Positions 4,727 to 44,311 of a DNA stretch of 64,000 nt are shown piece after piece (position 1 is the first letter of the stretch; each line of letters begins with the position of its first letter). The notes beneath the pieces were generated by a model. That model had not been told where the DNA came from and ran no database searches. It saw nothing but the letters and a program-made list of their open reading frames with translations. A program made the position numbers and the translations under genes. The stretch is from Gongronella butleri. Taxonomy: Eukaryota > Mucoromycota > Mucoromycetes > Mucorales > Cunninghamellaceae. The DNA lies in contig JAIWZP010000008.1 in the NCBI GenBank assembly GCA_025201375.1, positions 434,001 through 498,000 on the forward strand. The letters are read 5' to 3'.

Positions 4727-5815
4727 ATGTCATCCCCAGTGGTCAATCACGTTGTCGAGTCCATCAAGCGCGACCTTGCCTTTTTAAAATCGCAGCAGCA
4801 TCTGTCGCCGCAAGCTTACGATGACATGGTGCGCATTTTGTCGTCCAGCACGTCGTCCGGCGCTCCTCCCGCGGCCAATTCGCCGTACCGCTCCAGCGTC
4901 GGGAGCATGCCGTCGCCTGCGTCCAACAATTATACCTCACCCCCGCCCCCTGCCTATCCCTCGACCACACCGCCCGCTGATTCTGTCAAAGCCCTGTACG
5001 ACTATCAAGGCCAAAACCCGCAAGATCTCTCCTTTAAGGCGGGCGACATCATCCAAGTCGTTGAGCGCGGTAAAAACACGCATATTTTTGGAAACTTTTT
5101 TTTCTCACTCCTTTCATCTTTTTTTTTTTCACCCTTTCAGTCAACAGCGACTGGTGGCGCGGTCAATTGCACGGTCAGACGGGCCTCTTTCCTCAAAACT
5201 ACACCGAAAAGCACGTGTAAGACGCCAAAACACGAAAAAATAGATCCCATGACAGAGTTGGCTCATTTTTTTTTTATAAAGTGTCAGTGAAAAAGCGGCG
5301 CCTCCACCTATGCCCACGCGTGACAGCAAGCCGCCTGGCGGCTATGGTGCACCTCCAGCGTCGTCGTCGCCTTACCAGCAACAGCAAACGTCCGCTTATC
5401 CTCCCCCTCCTCCTCAAGCGTCTTCATACGCGTCTTACCAGCAGCCGCCCGCGGCGTCGGCGTACCCGCCCCCTCCTCCTGCCGCGCAGCCATACGGCAA
5501 TTACCCTCCTCCACCCGCCCAGGCCGCTCCTGCTCCCCCTGTTCAGCAGGCCGAGGCTGGCGGGTCCTCGGACGGCAAAAATGGCATGATGAAACGCTTT
5601 GCTGGCAAGCTTGGCGACGCGGTAAGCATCTTTTATGTGAAATGTCAATGGCGCGCTCTTACAATTCATTTTCTTGGCCATGATCATGTAGGCGACCCTT
5701 GGTTTTGGTGCGACACGTAAGTGAAAACTCGGTTGATTTTCGAATTTTTATGCTGACACTCTCTTTTTATTTGACGCGACTAGTGGGCAGCGAGGCCGCG
5801 CACGCCATTTTCTAG
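4727..5815 (+). CDS. SH3-domain protein of the Lsb1/Pin3 family
   Basis: Five exons: 4727-5069, 5141-5216, 5288-5621, 5692-5716, 5784-5815; 269 aa. The N-terminal helix (residues about 1-40, [15 protein letters not shown]) matches the conserved leader of yeast Lsb1/Pin3. One SH3 domain spans about residues 85-140 ([37 protein letters not shown]). A long Pro/Tyr/Ala-rich segment follows, ending in a short conserved tail ([18 protein letters not shown] ... AIF) also found in Lsb1/Pin3. In yeast these proteins bind Las17/WASP and limit actin nucleation. The micro-exon of 25 nt near the 3' end is needed to complete the tail. Role is inferred from the family; domain order is seen directly. Confidence 0.9.
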
Positions 5816-12814: not shown

Positions 12815-13676
12815 AAAACAACCCCCACCCCCAGTTCATCCCTTTTTCGCACTGGCTCACCCCAGCCAGCCTATGTATAGTTCATTTTTTTTCTTAGCAT
12901 TTGTTAAACTGCGCATATAAACCCCAAAGATACCTGAAATTAACTGAAATAAATTCTCAATTGGCCCAAAAAAATAATCGTATGATCCATCGTCGCGTGC
13001 CTCTCGGTGAAATCGCCATTAGATCCTGCTGTATGAACCCATTGCCTTTTTTTTTATCTATGAAATCATACAGTACTGTATCATACGTACAGTACAGTAT
13101 CGTGCATCCATTCACTCTGCTCTCATGTCGTAAAAAAATGTATAATGCTGCACCCAATGCTGTCATTCTGCACAAACAGCAAAAATCAACGTTTGCTTGA
13201 ACATTCCATCGCAAAAGCCACATTTCACCATCAATCCATTGTTCTCGTCTCTCGTATTCTTGACACTGAACCAAAATTCATTGCAAGTGGCCACATTGTA
13301 CCCTTTAAAAGCGCAACATCACAGAAAAATCACGGAAACACCACGGAAATACATCGAAACATTGAAAATCATTTGGACATCATATCCATGTCGACGCCCA
13401 CAATAATTCCCACACACATCGCCCTCTGCGCCAACACGGCGCAACATGACGCACACGCGCGTGCCACCGCCAAAATGCGCATCCTAAATCCTAATGATAC
13501 CTCTCGAAATTAAAAAAAAAAGCAAAAACCCCTTTGCCAGACACAATCTTGCACTGCCACCACTTCGCGCCATCAACGGCACAAGCAAAAGCAAACGTGC
13601 ACCTGCCTTAAAAGGCAGGTTTAAATTATCACATTTGGAAATGCTGAAATTTATCGCAAAAATTAAATCAAAAAAG
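12815..13676. other. Intergenic region between ZIP gene and tRNA-Glu
   Basis: No supported exon. A cluster of TACAGTA/TACTGTA words lies at about 13070-13105. A perfect 9-bp inverted repeat (ACCTGCCTT, 2-nt gap, AAGGCAGGT) lies at about 13601-13620, close to the 3' side of the tRNA gene. The significance of both is unknown. Confidence 0.35.
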
Positions 13677-13684
13677 AAAAAAAA
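13677..13684 (-). terminator. RNA polymerase III terminator of tRNA-Glu
   Basis: A run of eight T on the minus strand begins two bases past the tRNA 3' end (discriminator base at 13687), as expected for Pol III termination. Confidence 0.8.
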
Positions 13685-13686
13685 TG

Positions 13687-13758
13687 TTCCCTGACGGGGA
13701 ATTGAACCCCGGCCGTGCCGGTGAGAGCGGCAAATCCTGACCACTGGACCATCAAGGA
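13687..13758 (-). tRNA. tRNA-Glu (anticodon CTC)
   Basis: The 72-nt minus-strand sequence starts TCCTTGA and ends TCAGGGA plus discriminator A, giving a seven-pair acceptor stem with one T-G pair. The anticodon stem-loop is GCCGC-TCTCAC-CGGC with CTC as anticodon. The T arm is CCGGGGTTCAATTCCCCG, containing the B box. The A box is TGGTCCAGTGG. The layout matches fungal tRNA-Glu. No intron. Its first 16 nucleotides are part of the 17-bp duplication flanking the adjacent retrotransposon; the gene itself is intact. Confidence 0.93.
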
Positions 13759-13759
13759 C
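13743..13759. repeat. Target-site duplication, left copy (17 bp)
   Basis: ACTGGACCATCAAGGAC occurs here, overlapping the 5' end of the tRNA gene plus one base, and again exactly at 19476-19492. The intervening DNA is the non-LTR element. Confidence 0.85.
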
Positions 13760-14099
13760 AGACATTGTCACAACCGCGCGCAACAAAATCTGCGTGCCTC
13801 TTTATACATTTCTATCGTCGTACAAGCCAGCTGCACTATTACCCGTTTTGTCGCAATTCCGCTTATCCAAATTGTCATCAAGTAAGCCGAAAACCGCATC
13901 AAAAATCACGCCATCGGAACCCGTTTTCCCCGAAAAGACCTCTATCTCGTTCAATCCCGGCCTTGTCCTTGGCAAATCCACCGAAAAATCAGCCCGAGAG
14001 ACCCGCTATCGCAAACGCCAAGCACTATTAGACTATCCGACGTCACCCGCGGATTCCACCCCAGCCCAGAAAAAATTCGTCACCATCCATCCCTCCATC

Positions 14100-15146
14100 A
14101 TGGAAGCCGACAAGGCCCTCACGGCGCAAGTTTTTGAACTTGCTGCCTCCGTCCAAGCCCTGGTCACCAAGACCACCAAACTCGAGAACGAACTCGCCGA
14201 GATTTCCGCCCTCAAGGTCCGCCTCGAGGCTGCGGAAAAGCTGACCGATGAATTGCGCGAACAAAACGCGCAACTACAACGCGAAAACGCGCGCCTCCGG
14301 GCTGCACCGCCCCAACACCCCAGTCCTGCACCCGGCCCACGTGCACCCGGTCCCTCAGGGACGAGCCAAGCAACACCCTCTCCGGCACCCAGCACACAAG
14401 AGGCTGCCCGACCCCTGAATGCCACGCAAAACACGTGGCTAACCGTCGCAAAACGCGGTCGACGTCACGGCAAGACGTCGACGCGCCAACCCCCCACGCC
14501 CAATCAACTGGAATGGGCCGCACGCGGCTTCCAACCAATTGATGAGTCCTTTGAATCTGGCTTTACGATCCTCTACTTCAAGTCCCCCTCCGGCGCGCGT
14601 CATAACCAAGTCCGCGACCGACTCCGCATCCTCGGGATCGCCCAATCCCGAGTGTTGGACATTCACTTCCCGACACGTGGTGTCGTAGGATTCCTTGTAC
14701 ACCGCGAGTACGCAAAAGCACTCATCGCCACTTTTGCCGAAAAAAAAATCACCCCGATCGCGTTTGACCCATGTGACGCGTCCGTCATCGTCGATCCCAA
14801 ATACGACACGACCACCCCGTCTGACCGCGCGCAATTGGCACGCGAGCGCCACCAAAAGCGTATCCTATCCTCGTGTTTGCGCGCCAAACCCCAAGTTGGC
14901 CTGGCAATCATGCACCACTTCACCGACGAGGACTACAATGGTCCGCACCGCCTTGACAGTGAAATGCTCGCGATTTACGAGCACGCTCGCCCCCGACCCA
15001 CGCGCAATCAAGGCCAGAGTGCCGTTGAACGCGCCATTGCTGCTTTCAAAGACCAAAGCAGCCCATCCCAGCGAATCACCGACGACGACGACTTCCTGAT
15101 GGACGCATTGCTTGACGATGCGGACGCCCTCTCATCTCGCCAATGA
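14100..15146 (+). CDS. LINE ORF1 protein (coiled coil plus RNA-binding-like C-terminal region)
   Basis: 348 aa from the first in-frame ATG. The frame is open further upstream to about 13794 but without an ATG. Residues about 5-65 form a coiled coil rich in heptad Leu (ELAEISALKVRLEAAEKL, DELREQNAQLQRENARLR). A Pro/Ala/Ser linker follows, then a basic patch (KRGRRHGK). A globular region from about residue 140 reads TILYFKSPSGARHNQVRDRL and VLDIHFPTRGVVGFLVHREY. It resembles the RRM-like ORF1 domains of fungal LINEs, which bind the element RNA. The stop TGA overlaps the ORF2 start as ATGA. Function is by analogy with LINE ORF1 proteins. Confidence 0.8.
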   Translation: MEADKALTAQVFELAASVQALVTKTTKLENELAEISALKVRLEAAEKLTDELREQNAQLQRENARLRAAPPQHPSPAPGPRAPGPSGTSQATPSPAPSTQEAARPLNATQNTWLTVAKRGRRHGKTSTRQPPTPNQLEWAARGFQPIDESFESGFTILYFKSPSGARHNQVRDRLRILGIAQSRVLDIHFPTRGVVGFLVHREYAKALIATFAEKKITPIAFDPCDASVIVDPKYDTTTPSDRAQLARERHQKRILSSCLRAKPQVGLAIMHHFTDEDYNGPHRLDSEMLAIYEHARPRPTRNQGQSAVERAIAAFKDQSSPSQRITDDDDFLMDALLDDADALSSRQ

Positions 15147-18100
15147 GGGAGCGCGTCAAAATCGCCTTTCTTAATAGTCTTGGGCTTGCCCTGGACCCCC
15201 TTTTGTCACACTGCACCCGCCAAAAGATCGACATCCTCATACTCACCGAATCATACCGCTCCAGTGGCACCCTCCCCACCGACTGGCACCAACATCACCT
15301 CTTTGCCCGCCCAAACCCATCCACCAATGGCCAGATCCCTGGCGTTTCCATTCTTTGGCGCCGAGATCTACCCTTCCACGTTCACCCCCTGCCACCACAT
15401 GCCCCCCACGCCCTGTCCGTGCGCGCTGGCCCGCACACAATCACGGGCGTCTATTATCCACCATCACTACCCAACACCGCCTTTAGGGAAGCCATTGAAA
15501 AGCTCCCCAATGACCCTTTTTCTATCACCCTCGGTGACTGGAACGTGCGACTCGGCCCTCTGGTCGGCGACACACGCACCAATGCCCGAGCATCCATCAT
15601 GACCGAATGGATGGCAAATCGTGGCCTCCACGTGTGGAATGCTTCACTCGCCCACGGCAAACACACCTTTTTTCGCCGAGACCACAAGAGCGTGATTGAC
15701 TTTGCCGTGTCCCGAGAGCAAGATTGTCCCGCACCCGCCCTTGAAGTTGACGATGAGCAATTATTTGCAGCAGACCACTACTTATGCATCTTTTCTTTTC
15801 TTCCAACACAGGCCATTCCGCGCGTCCCCCTCCCCAATGCTCCGCGACGCCTCTGGCAGTTGGATCGCCTGGACGATGAGGATGTGCTTGCCCAATACGT
15901 CGACACATTTGCGGCCAACTTGGACCCCTTCCTCGAGGATGCCTCTGCAACCCGTCAATTACAAGATCGCCACGCCGCCACGGCCTCCATTGACGCGCTC
16001 GGAACCCGGCTCACACAAGCCATCCACGATGCCCTCGATGCCAGCGTCATGCCGACGACCCCGCGCCCAAAACACTGGAAGTGGTTTTGGACACCGCACC
16101 TTCAAAACCTCGCCGACGCCCGCCAACACGCTTTTGTGCAATGGAAACGCGCCCCCAACTCCATCGACCGCCTGCGCCTCTGGAAAGCCTAGTGCACGGC
16201 CCAAGACAACCTGCGACAAGCCATCAAGCAAGCACGCGCCCGTAGCTGGCAACAATTTTGCTTCGACATGCCCCGCAAATCAACGACCGAGTGTTTCGCC
16301 ATCCTCAAGCGCATCCGTCGCCGCAAGCACGCGTCCCCATCCTTTTCCCACCCTGACGGACACCAAGCTGCGGCCGACACTATGGTAAGTCACCTTGCTC
16401 ACGTGTTTGGCGGCGAGGCCGAGCCTCGTCCGCACCGAACCGATTTTCTTGACAACCCAGGCCCATCGCCATTCGACCCCGAGACCCTGCAAAGGATCAT
16501 CCTCAAGGAAATCCCCCCCTCCAAAGCGCCCGGCTGCGACCACATCACCGGCACCATGATCCGACCCGTCAGCGAGCCGCTAGCCATTATGCTCAGCGCG
16601 CTCATGTCCCTATGCTGGCAATGGACCCATGTCCCCGAGGATTGGCGCTTCGCACAAGTCGTCCCCATCTACAAAAAGGGGGACCCGACGTGTGCCGCCA
16701 ACTATCGCCCCATCAGCCTGACGTCTGTCTTCCGCAAGGTCATGGAGCGCTGCCTCCTCCCCGTCCTCCTCCACCAAATGCCCGCCCTCGACGTCGCCCA
16801 AGGCGGCTTCCGTTCCAAACGGGGCGCCCTCGACCAGGCATTCAACTTACAAATGCTCATGCATATGTACAAGGCACAATTTGGTCGTTTCCCAGCAGTC
16901 GCCTTCCTTGACATTGCCTCCGCTTATGACTCGGTTGACCGACAGGTCATCTGGCGCCGCCTCTCGTCTCACGCGTCCCCCGCCCTCCTCGAACTCCTTC
17001 AACATCTCTTTGACGACGTAAAAATACAGGTAATTCTGCAAAATTACGCGTCAAGAGCCATCCGCCCCGCCCGTGGTGTGCTGCAGGGATCCATCCTCAG
17101 CCCCATGCTCTACGCCGTCTTCATCGACACGCTTCCCCGTGTGCTGCGCACCGGCCCCGTCACCTATCCCCTTTTTATCCGCACCGTCCCCACCTCCATA
17201 GAAACATCCGAGGCTACGAGCGCGACCTTGCCCCGCCACAGCATCCGCTCCAATTCCCTGCGCCAAGATACCGAAATCACGCACATCAACGCGCTACTCT
17301 ACGCCGATGATGTCGCGATTTTCGGCGACCCAAGCGACGTGCAAATGATGCTCGCCGCCTGCCAGCTCCACTCCGCCCAATTCGGCTACCGATGGCACCC
17401 TGCCAAGTGCAAGGTGATCTACGAGCCCGACCCCACCACCACAGACACCCCCACCTTCCGCCTTTATGGCATTTCACTCGAAAACGTCCCTTTTTTCACC
17501 TATTTAGGTATCCCTTTTTCGCAACGAGGCATTCACACCGGCCAAATGACGACAATCGCGCGCACCAAAGCCATTGCAGCCATGACCACCCTTGCCAACA
17601 TCGGCGCACACCAGCATGGCTTTGGTCTCAACCTCGCCCTCAACATATACCGCACCTTCGTCCGTCCAATGCTCGAATATGGCCTCGCCATTGTAAAGCC
17701 ATCCCCCGCCGAACGAAATGCTCTCGAATCCGCCCAAACACGCTGCCTCCGCCTCGCCCTCAACGTCCGAAACCCCACCGCCACCACACCAACCGTCATG
17801 GTTCAACACCTCGCCGCCCTCCCCTCCATCAATTTCCGCCGCCTTTCCCTCACCCTCCGTCACCTCATCCGCGCCGAAACTTGCTCCCCCGCCACCCTCC
17901 TTGCCTGTGTGTCACTCCGAGTGCGCCAGGAAAACAAAAACATGCAGGTTTGGCGCCTTCTCACCAATCCCCGCCGCAACGACACCCTTCTCCCCGCTTT
18001 TCACGCTGCTCGCAAGGTAGCACCCCTCAACACCTCCCGCAACCCCGTCACAGCATTCCTCCGCGACCGCCACCAAGAGGAATGGGACAAACGACGCGTC

Positions 18101-18562
18101 AAAAGCACCCTGGCACGACGTGCTCGCAACAAGCCAATCTGGGACCCCATCCTATATGCCCCCGCCAGCACCAATTCCCGTCGCCGCCTTTTCTTTTGGC
18201 GTGCTGGATGGCTGCTCTCATACCCTTTGTCCGCCTGCGCCTGTGGTGCCCCAAAAGCCGATCGACACCATCTCACTCTCTGCCCCGAGGTTGGACCCGC
18301 CATTGCCCGCCTCCGAGAAATTGTCCCTATCGACTTCCCGCCCCACGACCACCCCATTGACACCGTGCTCAATGCACTGCCCCTCCGCCGCCACCTTTAC
18401 AAGGAAGGCCATTGGCGCAAGTCCTGGCCTTTCCTCCTCTCTTTGCTCCGTGACATTGATGTCGCCACTCACCCCACTGATCCCCCCGAGCCAGAGCGCT
18501 CACTCCTCCACGACACCCCCCCAACCGATGAAGTCACCCCCCTCCCCCATCGTGATAATTAA
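15143..18562 (+). pseudogene. LINE ORF2: AP-type endonuclease and reverse transcriptase, interrupted by one in-frame TAG
   Basis: One frame of 1140 codons with a single TAG at 16190-16192 (codon 350). The N-terminal part is an apurinic-type endonuclease with ILILTESYR, GDWNVRLG, VIDFAVS and DHYLCIFSF motifs. After the amber, which sits in the linker, the frame continues without other stops. Reverse transcriptase motifs then appear in order: NYRPISLTSVFRKVMERC, AFLDIASAYDSVDR, GVLQGSILSPMLYAVF, and the catalytic LYADDVAIFG (about codon 720). Near the C-terminus a CxC...HH...C knuckle (CACGAPKADRHHLTLC) is present. No RNase H motif was recognised. An ATG at 16268 could start a separate reverse transcriptase product. 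As drawn, a full ORF2 protein needs readthrough, so this copy is probably dead or borderline. Confidence 0.88.
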
Positions 18563-19475
18563 TTAATTTAAAGAAAAAAAAAAAACAAAAAAAAAAAAAA
18601 AAAAAAAAAAAAATCGATCACGGCCACTGCGCCTCTCCCCAACCCCCCTTTTTATTCTTTTATTTTTTTTATCTTATTTTGTCTATCCCTGCTGTTTACC
18701 AACTGCCCCCCGCCCCTTTCTCTTAGCTCTGCTTTTTATCATCCCCATCCCATCTTTCCCCGCTCATCTCCCCAATACTATTTTCCCTCTCGTCCCCCCA
18801 CCCATTTACCCATCACCTCCTCGCGCCCTCGCGCCACACCCCCCTCCAGCCGAAATCTCCCTACCGTCCCTCTCTCCTTTCCCCGCTTTTTTTTCCCCAT
18901 CAACAATCTTTCCCCAGCAAAACCCCCCACGGATGAAATCTCCACCTCATCCATTATCAAATACGCCCCCCTTGCGCATACCAATCCTCGCCGCCAATGA
19001 CCCCCCTCCTCCCCATCCCCTAGCCAGACACGCCATGAAACTCCGCCACAATGCCAAATAGACCCCGCCGATACCTCTGCTGCGCCATTTGCTGCACCCA
19101 CCCGCCCGGTGTCGATCCACCTCAAGACACACCAAGGACACATCCCCCGCATCCCTGCCATCCAAGTTGCTCCCCCCAATGGACAGCCCTTGAACAATAA
19201 GTTCCAGCCGCGGTGACGTTTTTTCTTTTCTTTTTTGTTGAATTGCTCGGGCATGAGCCCGGCCAGCTCAACCTCACCCGTCTGCACATCTAGTTTGACG
19301 CGTGTCTCGCGCCATCCGCCCTCCCCCAAGCTCCTCCACTCGTTTTTTCCTCCCAATGGGAGGTTTTTTCGACGACTCCCCCCCCCAGATCATTTTTTAA
19401 TAATGTACCCAATGGCATGGCCACAATGCCTATAGGCGCAGGCCACCAAAAGCCATCAATAAAAAATCTTCTTAA

Positions 19476-19492
19476 ACTGGACCATCAAGGAC
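19476..19492. repeat. Target-site duplication, right copy (17 bp)
   Basis: Exact copy of 13743-13759. The sequence after it (CTTGGATATCTG) is the presumed original upstream flank of the tRNA gene. Confidence 0.85.
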
Positions 19493-19902
19493 CTTGGATA
19501 TCTGTATGGTCGCTCAGTCTTACAAAAGCCTATTGCAATTTTCAAAATACGCTAAAATTCGCGTTTTAATATTCCTGTATGTTTAAGCGTGTGATTAACA
19601 CGTTTTGTGTAATTTCCAGCTCGATTGGATGCGTGTGGATGCGTCGGCGCGTCGATTTGGAAGTTTGGGACGCGTGAAAACCGTGTTTTTCCTGATTTGG
19701 AGTTGCACTCCGATTTTGTGGCACCAGCACCATGTCAGTCATGTAAAACGCGTAAATCACAGCTGTGGCTTGAGTCTACATCAGTGCTCGGTACTCAAAA
19801 GCCAGTTAAAATTTTCAAAAATATAAAAATGCAGCAATTATAAAAAGGCTTTGCTATGGGTCCTCCAAAAAATAAAATAAATAAAAAACATTCTGTTTTG
19901 GA

Positions 19903-20163: not shown

Positions 20164-20184
20164 ATTGCCTCATTTTTACTTTAT

Positions 20185-20445
20185 TGAAAAAAGGGGGCAC
20201 AAACAGAAAAAAAAAGGACAAATGTCATAGTGTGCTGGGAGACAGCGACAAAAACAGGGGGACACAGATAGAAAAAAAAAGAGGCACAAACTGAAAAAAA
20301 GGGGCGGTAAAAACACAAAAAAAGAGAGCAGAAGATGTCATGGTGCACTGGGAGAGATGGACAAGAAAAAAAAGGGCACAGACAGAAAAAAAAGGGCACA
20401 GACAGAAAAAAAAGGGGACACAAACAGAAAAAAAAAGCTGGGTGC
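20185..20445. repeat. Minisatellite of A-rich units, two-level
   Basis: About eight copies of a 20-30-bp unit of the form GGGGCACAGACAGAAAAAAAA are present, three of them nearly identical at 20370-20440. Interspersed are two copies of a longer word, ATGTCATRGTGYRCTGGGAGA, at about 20223 and 20335. The low-complexity Phe/Cys-rich minus-strand ORFs here are artefacts of the repeat. Confidence 0.75.
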
Positions 20446-23721: not shown

Positions 23722-26700
23722 TCAAACAACAGAATATCTACCGGGCAGGCCGCCGCCCTGGCGCGCCTCGGCCTCCATGGACGCAATGGTCGCTTCTTCC
23801 AGGATGCGTCTGATCTCGTGCTTGGCCTTTTCAAGCACAAGTTCGCTCTCGCCCTCAATGTACAGGTACAATTTGCGCTCGTTCGGCCCGGGGGTTGTCC
23901 CTGGCATAAAGAACGTGCCACGCGTCGTGATCGCCGCCCCTGAGATTTCGCTGATGAGCGAGATTTGTTCCTAAAAAAAGCAATAAAACAAAAAATAAAA
24001 TGAAAGTGAGTAAAAAAAAAAAAAAAAGTCCAAAGAGCCCCATTTCACCAGTCCATGGATTGGCCTTACCTTGTTGGTAACCTTCCAGCGCGCCTTTTGC
24101 GGAAAGTCGTTGATGACGATTTCCTCGGCATAGAGGCGGGGTTTCTCGTCGTCTTCGTCTTCGTCGGCCTTTTTGGGCTTGCCGAGGCTGGCGAGACGCG
24201 CGGCGATCTGCGCAGCCTTGCGTGCACCTTCTGAGAGCACCGCAGCATCGTCTGCGGATGGAGCCGCAGTTGTGTCGCCCGTGGCGGCGGCAGCCGCAGG
24301 TGCTGTATTAGCGGGCTTGGGTGGGCCAGGGGTCACGCGCGTCGCTTCGAGCTCAAGCTCTTCGTCCGACTCGTCCATGTCCTCGCCGCCGTATGCCTAA
24401 TGAATTAAAAAAAAAAAAAGGGATGAACAAGACGGGTCAATTTGCTTCAATTGAACGAATTTACCTTCTTTTGTATCTTTTTAAGGGTGTCGCGGTCCTT
24501 GTCAAAGCGCTCGAGACCCTTGCCGCCAAAACCGGAGCTAGCAAGACGCTCCTCGCCGCTCTCGACCTTGTTTTTAAATTCGTCCGTCAATTGCTGCAAT
24601 TCCAGAGGGATCTCCTGGCCACTCAGCTTGAGCGCCTTGGCAATGTCCTTGGCATAGCGCTCCTGGGACGGCGTGATGAACGTGTACGCGGTGCCCTTGT
24701 TGCCTGCACGGCCCGTACGACCGACGCGGTGCACGTAATCCTAAAAAGGAAAAATCAATGAGCTGCCGTGTCTCTTTTTTTTTCTTCCCCACAATTTCAA
24801 AAAAAAATTTACCTCCATATGGTTGGGACATTCGTAATTGATGACCAGTTTCAGCTGCTTGACGTCGAGGCCGCGCGCAGCGACGGAGGTGGCAATGAGG
24901 ATGTTGATGACGCCAGATTTAAAGTCGGCAATGGTGGTGTCGCGGTCGACTTGGTCTTTGCCGCCGTGAAGCGATTGAGAGATGTAGCCGCGACGCAGCA
25001 GCTCGCCAAGCAGGTTGTCAGCGGCCTCTTGACGGTCGACAAAGATCAGCACACGCGCGGTCTCGTCCTCCTCGTTGTAGAATTGGCCAAGAATCTCGAG
25101 CAAACGCACAAATTTGGTTTCTTCCTCGCGCACCTCGATAATCTGCTTGACATCGCTGGCCACCACGCTGCGCCCACCCACCGTGATCTCCACAGGCTTC
25201 TTGAGCACCTTGCGCGCCAGCGCTTCCATCTAAAAAGAAAGAGGCATTGTGAGAAATCAATCGAATTCCCTTTTTTTTTCTCATTTTTTTTTTTTACCTG
25301 GCGCGGGAATGTGGCGGAAAACAACACCGTCTGACGACTGGGGCGCACATTGTTGACAATTTTCATCACCTATAAAACAAGCCAAAAAAAAAAAAGGTAT
25401 TTGTGTCTTGTTCTCTGATTTCTTTCTTCTTTTTTTTTTTTTTTTTAACTTACCTGAGGCTCAAAGCCCATGTCAAACATGCGATCAGCTTCGTCGAGGA
25501 CGAGGTACGTGACGCGCGACAGATTGGTGACGCGGCCAGAATTGGCGCAGAGGAGATCAATCATTCGTCCGGGGGTGCAGACAATGATTTCAGCGCCGCG
25601 CTTCAAATCCGCGATTTGATCCTTGATGGGGCTACCGCCGTACGCGCAGACAGCACGTAGACCAAGCACCTTGAGAAAGAGTTTGCATTCACGGTGGATT
25701 TGGGTGGCGAGTTCGCGTGTGGGCGTCATGATCACAGCGATTGGTCCTTCCCCGGGCTCGAGAGGCCGCTGGTCCTTGATGTGGCGGAACATGGGCAGCA
25801 AAAAGGCAATGGTCTTGCCGGAGCCCGTCTTGGCAACACCAATGACATCACGGCCATTCATGATGGCGGGGATGGCCTGGGCTTGGATCGCCGTCGGCTT
25901 CTCGAATTGCAGTTTGCGGATCATCTCCAGGCACCCTGCAGGCAGGCCACAGTGTGTCCACTTTTGAATCGGCTTTGGGCAATTGACGCCGCGGATCTTG
26001 ATCCCGTCCAAGTCGTCGCGTAGACTGGTCACTTGCTCAGGCGTCATGTCGCGCATGTCCGCAGGCTCAATATAGAAATCCTTGCGAAATGGCTCATAGT
26101 CCATCTTGCTGTGGTCCACGGCAGCCAGGTCCTTGCGCTTTGCCTTTTTCGCCGCCATCCTAGTGTTTTTAAAAAATAAATGAAATTGAGCCATTTTTTT
26201 CGTTATTTTTCGCATTTTTTTCTTTCATGGTTTTTTTTTCTCGATATCTTACGCAAGAATGGACTCGGGGTCGCTGCCATAGCCATCGCTCTCCTTGTCA
26301 GCTTGTTCCTCATTGTCGGCTTCGACGGCGCGGTCGGTGTATTCGATGTTTTGCATGCGGAGCTTGTCTTCCTCGTTGATTTTGCGTGCTTCTGCGGTGA
26401 CATCCTGCATGTAGGCGTCGAGAGGATCCACGTCGTCGTCATCGACGTCCATGGGGTCTTCAGGCTGCTTGTTGGCGGGCGCAGGGGAATTGGAGGCGGA
26501 TGTGTCTGCGCTGTCCATCTTTTTGGCCATCATCAAGCCCATGCCCATCTTGTTCTTCCCAAGGCCAAAGCTCATGGGCTTGGTCGACGACAAGGACGCT
26601 GTCTTGGTGCCATTGGCTGCTGCTGCTGCTGCGGCAGGTCGCTTACCAAAGGTGAATGTCTTTTTGGGCGCGGTAGGCTTTATGGCGGCATTGATCGATT

Positions 26701-36418: not shown

Positions 36419-37312
36419 TTACTGTAAAATTTCGTGGTATACAACGTTTTCCACTTCTACGGGAATAGAGCCTTCAAGTTGACGTCGTCGTTGGGCTTCG
36501 ATGCTGGACAAAGGGACTGCAATTCGGAGGTTGCGCGGGTTGCGTGTTCGAGACAGCGCAACATAGAGCTGACCATGCGTGAATATTGATTCAGGATGCT
36601 TTATGTACAATCCTGCTGCTTGCAATGATTGGCCTTGCGCCTTGTGGATTGTTATGCACCATGCAGGCTTAACTGGTAGCTGGCGTCGTAGCATCTGAAA
36701 TGGAAGTGTGCCTTCTCCATCAGTGAGAAAGTTAATGCGTGGCAGAATGTACTCAGTCGCTTCATCGTCGTCGTCGTCGTCTACGAATCTTTTTACGCCA
36801 ATTTGATATTGAAGCAACCGTGTTACATACACCTTCGTTCCATTGCATAGTTTGGCGGCCTTATCAATGTTGCGTGTTATGATGAGTGGCATGCCGGTCT
36901 TCAATTTCAAAACGTGATCTGGTACGCCTTTGATGTGCAATTCCTGCAGGCTCTCGGTCGTGAATTGGCTGGTGATTTCGTTCGTGGCCGAGTCGCCGTG
37001 CAGTTCAGACAGCGAGGTATAAACACGTTCTTCACCGGGGAACACCGAAAACGCAAGATCATTGATTCTATTGACGTCGTCGTTTTTGGCTGCCAAGATT
37101 GCGCGGTCTCGGAATTGCGTGTGATCAGCTGCGGAATCTCGCAAAGATGGGTATATGAAATTAATCAATTGCCAAGGGTATGCGGCGTCAAGTAGCCATT
37201 GTCTATTGATGGGTATTGAATGCTGATAAGGAGGAATGCCAGCACCGACCTTAAGCAGCAAGTCAGCAAATTCGCGAGCTGTTTGCTGAGAAAGAGGGGA
37301 TCGATGCATCAA
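36419..37312 (-). pseudogene. Helitron helicase relic (Pif1-like C-terminal part)
   Basis: A 297-aa open frame ending at a TAG/TAA-type stop. It shows Helitron Rep/Hel C-terminal motifs: EFADLLLKVGAG, RAILAAKNDDVNRIND, KGVPDHVLKLKTGMPL, NIDKAAKLCNGTK, AWCITIHKAQGQSLQ, and HGQLYVALSRTRNPRNL. The replication-initiator domain, Walker A and the N-terminal half of the helicase are absent; upstream sequence in the same strand is decayed. The element is thus 5'-truncated and cannot transpose by itself. It is nested between two copies of repeat family A. I did not find a convincing 3' hairpin with CTRR end. Confidence 0.85.
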
Positions 37313-37479
37313 ATGATATGACTCTCAAAGCGCTGGTGTGTAGGTTGCCAAACAGATTTGAGATATTTGTCCGCACTTGAATCTCTCAAGCGGGCGACCC
37401 TCCAGATGCATTTTGACCTGCTGACCAAGCAACTTTTTTTCGTAATTTGAAAAAATCATTTCACCACCAAGAACTCATT

Positions 37480-42586: not shown

Positions 42587-44311
42587 ATGTCAGGGCAAAG
42601 TAAGCAACGATGACCCATGGCTATGGCGAGACACACAGGGAAGCTGACGGTCCAATTTTTTCTTTGAAACATTTACAGCTCGAGTTTTTAAGCGATCCGA
42701 AGTGTCCGATTCGCTCAAGGCGTACCAAGCGGGCGACAAGAACGCCGACAAGTTCCTGATTGTCGACAACAAGGTGTACGACATCACGGATTTCATTGCT
42801 GATCATCCTGGCGGTGCTCAGGTCATCTCTACGCACATTGGCAAGGATGCCTCTGGTGAGTCACTAGGACTGCAGATGGGCCACGGAGGCTTGCAGAGCG
42901 AGCGGAAATGGCAAAAAAGAAAGGGGGGGGGAATCGAGGGTCCCAGGGAAAAAGAAAAAAAAAGATTTGGTGGGCTGATCTTTTTTCCTTTTTTTTTTTT
43001 TTTTTTTAGATGTGTTTCATGCGATGCATCCCGAGTCTGCGTACGAATTGCTTGCTAATTGCTACGTTGGCGATCTTGCTGCGGACCATGCTGGTGTGCA
43101 GGGCGAATTGGTGAATGGTGTACACAAAAAGTCCAAGGCATTTGCGGACGAGATGCGATCGTTGCGCGAGCGTCTTGAGACGGAGGGTGCCTTTAATGGC
43201 AGTGTTCCGTTTTACATTTACAAGGTGGTGTCGACGTTGGCCATTGGTGCGACGGGTCTGGCCATGCTCTACTATGGCGGCCATTCGACGTCGGTCGTGC
43301 TTGCGGCGGCGGTGGTTGTCGGTCTGTTTTGGCAACAGTGCGGCTGGCTCGCCCACGACTTTGGCCACCACCAGGCGTTTGCGGACCATACGGTCAATGA
43401 CGTGATGATTGCGTTTTTGGGTGGATTCTGCCAAGGTTTCTCGCTGTCGTGGTGGAAGAACAAGCACAACACTCACCACGCCTCCACCAACGTCCACGGC
43501 CACGATCCCGATATCGATACGGCGCCTGTCCTCCTCTGGGACGAATTTGCCACCGCCAATTTCTATGGAAACCTCGAGGGTCAAAAGGATTCGGCATTCT
43601 CGCGCTTCATTGCCGAGCACGTGCTCCCCTACCAGACGCGCTATTACTTTTTTGTCCTCGGCTTTGCGCGTCTCTCGTGGGCCATCCAATCGCTCCAATA
43701 CTCGTTCACCGTCGGCACACTCAACAAGTCAAAGACTCTCAACCTGTTTGAGCGCACCATGCTTGTCAGCCATTGGATCTTGTTCACCACTTGGACGCTC
43801 CTCTTCATCAATTCGTGGACCAACATGGTCATGTTCTTTGTCGTCAGCCAGGCCACCACCGGCTACGCGCTTGCCCTCGTTTTCGCCATGAACCACTCGG
43901 GCATGCCCGTCCTCACCCAAGAACAGGCCCAAAAGATGGAATTCTACGAGATCCAGGTCGTCACCGCCCGCGACGTCACCCTCGGCGCCCTCGGCGACTG
44001 GTTCTGCGGCGGCCTCAACTATCAAATCGAGCACCATGTAAGCAAAATTTAGAAAAAAAAAGGACAACGGCGCGTCGCAAAAAGAGCCACAAAGCCTGAT
44101 TCCCGCCCCCCTTTTTTTTTTCTTATCCCAGGTATTCCCTGATATGCCCCGCCACTACCTGCCCAAGGTCAAGCCTCAAGTCAAGGCTCTCTGCAAAAAA
44201 CACAACATTTTGTACCATGATACCTCTGCTTTGCGCGGCACCTTGGAAGTGCTGCAAACCTTGGATGTTGTCCAAAAGCTCTGCGCCAAGTTCTCTCAAA
44301 AGATGTTTTAG
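42587..44311 (+). CDS. front-end fatty acid desaturase with N-terminal cytochrome b5 domain (delta-6 type)
   Basis: Four exons: 42587-42599 (13 nt), 42679-42855, 43010-44037, 44132-44311; 465 aa. The cytochrome b5 domain spans about residues 5-85 with the haem motif HPGG (ADHPGGAQV). Three histidine boxes follow: HDFGHH, HNTHH (in WWKNKHNTHHAS), and QIEHH, where Gln replaces the first His as in front-end desaturases. QQCGWLAHD and VHGHDPDIDT closely match fungal delta-6 desaturases of the Mortierella/Mucor type. The enzyme would introduce a double bond between an existing one and the carboxyl end, using electrons through its own b5 domain in the ER. Delta-5 versus delta-6 cannot be settled by motif alone. 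Confidence 0.94.

Follow-up and report, generated by a model that had tools for sequence, protein, structure and literature searches.

What places a LINE flush against the 5′ end of a tRNA gene in the fungus Gongronella butleri (Mucorales, Cunninghamellaceae): the sequence of the gene, the machinery bound to it, or chance? The element lies in a stretch of 64,000 nucleotides (the window: positions 434,001 to 498,000 of contig JAIWZP010000008.1, assembly GCA_025201375.1). An earlier note, made from the letters of this stretch alone, reported a LINE inserted at the 5′ edge of a tRNA-Glu gene with a 17-bp target duplication, and proposed that further copies at tRNA 5′ ends would mark a site-specific lineage. 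Here we analysed the junctions in the window, the other copies in the G. butleri genome (32,997,837 bases in 110 contigs; the window is on contig C89) and the relatives of the element.

The junctions are as the note had described them. The 17-mer ACTGGACCATCAAGGAC is found exactly at both ends of the element (Table 1), and these are the only two matches in the window at three or fewer mismatches (chance mean, 0.09). The same sequence was also recovered as window repeat family D3 and, among direct repeats of at least 16 nt in positions 13600-19620, it is the sole pair that sits at the element ends; there are no long terminal repeats. Read on the minus strand, the 17-mer consists of nucleotides 1-16 of the tRNA plus base -1, the composition that the note had given it. 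Both ARAGORN and Rfam call the tRNA, with anticodon CTC, and ARAGORN returns an intact gene, so that the claim that the insertion had left the gene whole is sustained, as is that of an AATAAA-bearing 3′ end ahead of the right repeat.

The sequence between the repeats is that of a LINE, as the note had called it: one frame for ORF1, and an ORF2 that has an endonuclease and a reverse-transcriptase (RT) domain. Both ORFs point away from the tRNA gene, ORF1 being the nearer, and the ATG of ORF2 overlaps the stop codon of ORF1 (ATGA, 15143-15146; ORF1 stop, 15144-15146). In ORF2, an APE-type endonuclease (PF14529) precedes the RT (PF00078). Among PDB entries, R2 and LINE-1 ORF2 proteins match the RT (E about 1e-12 to 1e-10); a single-sequence search of the endonuclease against the PDB gave no relevant match, and the Pfam scan of the element gave no second nuclease domain and no RNase H. 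With an endonuclease and RT, without long terminal repeats and with a target-site duplication, the element is an APE-type non-LTR retrotransposon (LINE). Its last bases are not poly(A), and the A-tract is internal. We considered a hairpin in the 3′ untranslated region (UTR) as a recognition structure and set it aside as not convincing (fold z-score -1.72; 11 of 200 shuffles were equally stable).

Table 1. Features of the LINE and the tRNA-Glu gene in the window (positions are those of the window)
Feature	Position	Strand	Evidence or remark
Intact tRNA-Glu gene, anticodon CTC	13686..13758	-	ARAGORN; Rfam RF00005, 57 bits, 13687-13758
Left duplication copy, tRNA nt 1-16 plus base -1	13743..13759	+	Identical to 19476-19492
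LINE element, 5,716 bp, head-to-head with the tRNA gene	13760..19475	+	Ends from the duplication and the second full copy (C20:62589-68350)
TATAAA in the direction of the tRNA, about 43-48 bp upstream of it; a lead only	13801..13806	-	Sequence
ORF1 from first ATG (stop-to-stop frame 13725-15146); without Pfam match	14100..15146	+	
ORF2 frame; one in-frame stop at 16190-16192 in the window copy	15143..18562	+	
Endonuclease domain, PF14529 Exo_endo_phos_2, E 4e-7	15440..15781	+	Pfam scan
Reverse transcriptase domain, PF00078, E 1.8e-21	16673..17509	+	Pfam scan
Internal A-rich tract; longer in the C20 copy	18570..18613 (about)	+	
Terminal part of 3′ UTR, also preserved in the decayed C23 relative (74% over 123 bp)	19346..19475	+	
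AATAAA within the terminal part of the 3′ UTR	19458-19463	+	
Right duplication copy, orphan tRNA nt 1-16 plus base -1	19476..19492	+	Exact match
tRNA-Glu upstream motif GAAAATTGCAATAGGCTTTTG, the element now lying between motif and gene	19523..19543	-	

Elsewhere in the window, fragments at 36419-37324 and 24741-25229 (both minus strand) match Pif1 helicase 2B and Helicase_C domains, and there is a desaturase-like ORF at 42979-44049, which over 96% of its length is identical to a delta-6-desaturase of G. butleri.

The last 400 bp of the element match the genome in three places: the window, C20:62589-62989 (minus strand) and C23:256024-256146. The C23 match covers positions 269-391 of this probe, and the end of the C23 element was set by alignment. 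Directly after the element, all three places continue into the first 16 nucleotides of tRNA-Glu(CTC), hereafter the 16-mer; the same search of this genome turned up no copy with unrelated sequence at its 3′ side. A probe of the first 801 bp finds the window, C20 and, on C23, two stretches. On C20 the whole element is present (C20:62589-68350; L012 2090-7850, minus strand); like the copy in the window, it lies head-to-head with an intact tRNA-Glu(CTC) gene (L012 7852-7924), from which a single base separates it. The duplications measure 17 bp in the window and 16 bp on C20, as the 5′ ends of the two elements differ by about a base. ORF2 is broken in both of these young copies, by the in-frame stop in the window and by a frame break on C20, so neither need be active. 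The relative on C23 is decayed: it retains 94% identity in parts of the RT and 74% over 123 bp at the 3′ end, is broken elsewhere, and ends in ACTGGACCATCAAGGA, the tRNA-Glu(CTC) 16-mer. This old insertion is documented at the 3′ junction alone. A nearby 5′ fragment (L014 about 4,928-5,368), which may belong to the same insertion, has no tRNA gene on its left and contains a T-rich TATA stretch similar to that of the window copy. The surrounding stretch (L014 1040-5370; C23:253039-257370) is a graveyard of at least two element relatives within 4.4 kb, with RT identities of about 45% for one and about 79-94% for another; an intact tRNA-Glu(CTC) gene without an element lies roughly 7 kb away.

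Several insertions thus share the same base: this holds for three of three 3′ ends, and the two full copies agree at either end with at most one base of difference. The further copies at tRNA 5′ ends on which the note had made a site-specific lineage depend do exist: every match of the 3′ probe runs into the 16-mer, a second full copy abuts a tRNA-Glu(CTC) gene, and young and old copies alike end at the same base. That an unspecific LINE merely happened on a tRNA gene is scarcely credible; three insertions are a small number, but all three lie at the same base of a site that has about five places in 33 Mb.

A shared junction could also arise from one insertion at a tRNA-Glu gene that was spread by later duplication of the whole tRNA-plus-element block. 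The tRNA-Glu(CTC) genes are paralogous units, and the two young copies share 561 bp of homologous right flank; both observations would suit such a history. However, these flanks are 90.7% identical, whereas the elements themselves reach 99.9% on one side of the A-tract (4,811 bp) and 99.8% on the other (856 bp). With right flanks only 91% alike, the young copies look like separate insertions. On the left, the copies match at 92.7% over 110 columns, the identical tRNA included, and the homology stops about 35 bp past the tRNA. Block duplication is also at odds with divergence that starts from the first base after the 16-mer, with duplications of unequal length and with a far older relative on C23 that ends at the same base. 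We consider it very improbable; as the flanks are paralogous, gene conversion could have played a part.

Separate insertion at one base raises the question of how many such sites the genome offers. In 33 Mb there are seven exact occurrences of the 16-mer (two each on C20, C23 and C89, and one on C93), namely four tRNA-Glu(CTC) genes and three element junctions, with none left over. With up to two mismatches there are 40 places (7 exact, 4 with one mismatch and 29 with two), and a backward control gives 4. The four one-mismatch places were rejected as targets, as no tRNA is found there, and a recurrent two-mismatch form sits in a repeat that may be a Tc1/mariner-like coding stretch. Elements are present at two of the four intact tRNA-Glu(CTC) genes. 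The unoccupied genes, on C23 and C93, each have a single copy of the 16-mer and represent paralogous empty sites.

The flanks retain a further trace of the original arrangement. At each of the three occupied sites, as at the unoccupied C23 gene, a motif with the core CAAAAGCC follows 31 nt past the 16-mer; on C93 it follows at 29 nt. By this motif the right flanks of the elements can be recognized as what were once the upstream regions of tRNA-Glu genes. Some 30 nt upstream, tRNA-Glu(CTC) genes have forms near GAAAATTGNANTNGGCTTTTG: in the window (19523-19543, with the element intervening), at C23:246742-246762 and at C93:63488-63508. A two-mismatch form is present at C53:123154-123174, 32 nt from another tRNA (C53:123051-123122). 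The motif is perhaps a Pol III upstream element of G. butleri. Just past the tRNA upstream region, the window contains a loose array of A-rich units (20180-20440) of the form ...ACAGAAAAAAAAGGGGCAC....

We conclude that the element is very probably a sequence-specific APE-type non-LTR retrotransposon that targets the 5′ part of tRNA-Glu(CTC) genes, on the evidence of three insertions in one genome and with nick positions read off the junctions. The element endonuclease would nick the sense strand of the tRNA gene between nucleotide 16 and the next G, inside the A box, which extends from nucleotide 8 to nucleotide 19 in standard numbering. The 3′ end freed at nucleotide 16 would prime reverse transcription from the 3′ end of the element RNA, and the other strand would be cut 16-17 bp off, at tRNA base +1 or -1. 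Fill-in would duplicate nucleotides 1-16 and, because a cut at +1 or -1 makes the duplication span this part, the gene body would regain a complete 5′ part. The old 5′ part and the upstream motif would remain as an orphan at the far end of the element; the tRNA gene would keep its internal promoter and acquire the 5′ end of the element as its new upstream flank.

The alternative is that the position is set by protein, as in TRE5 elements: Pol III factors (TFIIIB or TFIIIC) would draw the insertion machinery to the gene, and the fixed position would reflect the shape of the complex and not the DNA sequence. TFIIIC binds the A box, in which the predicted nick would fall. As described in the available text of two reports, the ORF1 protein of TRE5-A binds TFIIIB and TRE5 is oriented opposite to the gene, as is the element here (PMC5911963), and Dp_NLTR-A inserts 2-6 bp upstream of tRNAs (PMC5006619). 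However, the same text has TREs scattering over tens of bp (PMC5911963), and in G. butleri all three insertions are at one isoacceptor. The tRNA genes found number at least 70 (63 on one list and 7 tRNA-Glu genes, none shared), which would put three hits on this isoacceptor at a rough chance of (5/70)^3, near 4e-4, if all genes were equally good. This count is taken from an incomplete list (63 of 869 first-look candidates scored, with the tRNA-Glu of the window missing), and the gene searches of the genome give lower bounds. Three tRNA-Glu(TTC) genes have the A box TGGTCCAGTGG in common with the CTC genes and differ at nucleotides 5-6, and none of the three has a match to the 3′ probe, an observation that is weak alone given the small number. 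We regard targeting through Pol III factors as unlikely. For the fuller form of the sequence-specific reading, we see about an even chance: the endonuclease would read about 16 bp of the gene for one tRNA isoacceptor directly in the DNA, cut in the A box and rebuild the gene through the length of the duplication, having replaced the upstream flanks of the two occupied genes among the four that are intact, and the element would persist on about five sites in a homing-like manner.

To place the element among its relatives, we compared its RT part with protein collections. It matches 788 proteins at E 0.001 or better; among the best 120 of the 788, the top matches are about 48% identical and the names include Lichtheimia, Circinella, Umbelopsis, Mucor and Rhizopus, with RT identities of 45-48% for the relatives in Lichtheimia and Circinella. 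No relatives of the element were found in viral contigs, and the search of prokaryote species genomes yielded nothing useful, the single hit being a 27%-identical stretch in a Cyanobium metagenome-assembled genome. A tree of 64 rows was built from RT sequences (of 60 listed relatives offered, 55 passed the length filter and 5 were dropped; 8 other G. butleri LINEs were added). The window element groups with P0001, P0013 and P0014 (Circinella minor) with support of 97/93, and the other G. butleri LINEs are set off from it (100/100); one row drew a long-branch warning. Besides the element, the tree covers its own protein matches and these other LINEs.

The other LINE families of G. butleri were rejected as candidates for tRNA targeting: to a distance of about 1.5 kb from the RT match, no tRNA gene is present at any of 14 RT loci, which is a weak control given that most of the element ends are undefined, and the six loci that were read in 7-8-kb stretches likewise lack a tRNA gene. 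One of these families has copies at C20:341348, C67:837610 and C73:127653 that are 99.9% alike over 3.7 kb around the RT, with open frames of 1,044-1,183 amino acids and no tRNA genes in 7.5-8 kb.

Targeting of tRNA genes by LINEs has been described in other lineages, which we compare here as far as the available text of the cited sources goes. The earlier note invoked Dictyostelium TRE elements, a parallel that applies to insertion beside tRNA genes and not to the fixed position, which is closer to sequence-specific LINEs than to TREs lying tens of bp away. Its broader suggestion of tRNA targeting similarly stands for the 5′ edge and not for tRNA genes in general, as one isoacceptor, tRNA-Glu(CTC), is the target seen. 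Many tRNA genes serve the dictyostelid TRE5, TRE3, NLTR-A and NLTR-B as targets, with insertion at set distances (PMC5006619, PMC5911963). TRE5, for which there is a link to TFIIIB, lies about 40-54 bp upstream of the gene, and TRE3 40-150 bp downstream of it (PMC5911963, PMC5006619); TREs have a zinc finger after the RT (PMC5006619, PMC5911963). They resemble the G. butleri element in being APE-RT elements beside tRNA genes and, for TRE5, in lying opposite to the gene (PMC5006619, PMC5911963). By contrast with TRE5 and TRE3, the G. butleri element lies 0-1 bp from tRNA nucleotide 1 at one isoacceptor, has three of three insertions at one base with a duplication over nucleotides 1-16, and has a 3′ end without the poly(A) of TREs, its A-tract being internal. 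NLTR-A differs in its RNase H domain (PMC5006619, PMC5911963), for which the Pfam scan of the G. butleri element gave no counterpart.

The NeSL clade contains families specific to tRNA genes, namely NeSL-1_TV (tRNA-Pro), LIN15_SM (tRNA-Arg) and LIN25_SM (tRNA-Glu) (PMC4640811), the last sharing tRNA-Glu genes as a target with the G. butleri element. However, NeSL elements use a restriction-like endonuclease (PMC4640811), whereas that of G. butleri is APE-type (PF14529), with no second nuclease domain in a Pfam scan that lacked a dedicated restriction-like model; their hosts are planarians and Trichomonas (as we read the TV suffix), not a Mucorales fungus. Strict targets also occur among APE LINEs of the R1 and Tx1 clades, such as Keno (U2), Mutsu (5S rRNA) and Dewa (tRNA-Leu spacer) (PMC3706591, PMC4640811), which share with the G. 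butleri element an APE-type endonuclease and a fixed position in a multicopy RNA gene. The named zebrafish families are found in animals, and Dewa is in a spacer of tRNA-Leu, not in the gene (PMC3706591). Among fungi, Zorro3 and Ylli are also two-ORF APE-type LINEs (PMC7175516, PMC5014426). Zorro3 uses poly(A) sites (PMC7175516) and no duplication was found for Ylli (PMC5014426), and tRNA targeting is not described for either in the text available (PMC7175516, PMC5014426). In the table of a review of Pol III-associated elements, as far as the available text shows, the fungal entries are LTR elements, and non-LTR elements appear under dictyostelids alone (PMC5911963). In the open-licence literature (Repbase reports are outside that scope), we found no fungal LINE with tRNA-gene targeting.

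The habit of targeting tRNA genes has so far been described mainly in slime moulds and animals. The APE LINEs with strict targets that are named in the available text are those of R1 and Tx1 (PMC4640811), and a strict tRNA target in a fungus would represent a further origin of sequence specificity. The element offers a comparison of two routes to a safe harbour, the reading of DNA sequence here and the recognition of Pol III factors in TRE5. If the endonuclease of the element does recognize a long site within tRNA genes, as predicted here from insertion junctions, it may be of interest for gene-delivery tools. With a target of four genes, two of which are occupied by near-identical copies, persistence on a low-copy target, a question raised for Utopia (PMC4640811, in the text available), becomes testable in a small haploid-sized genome.
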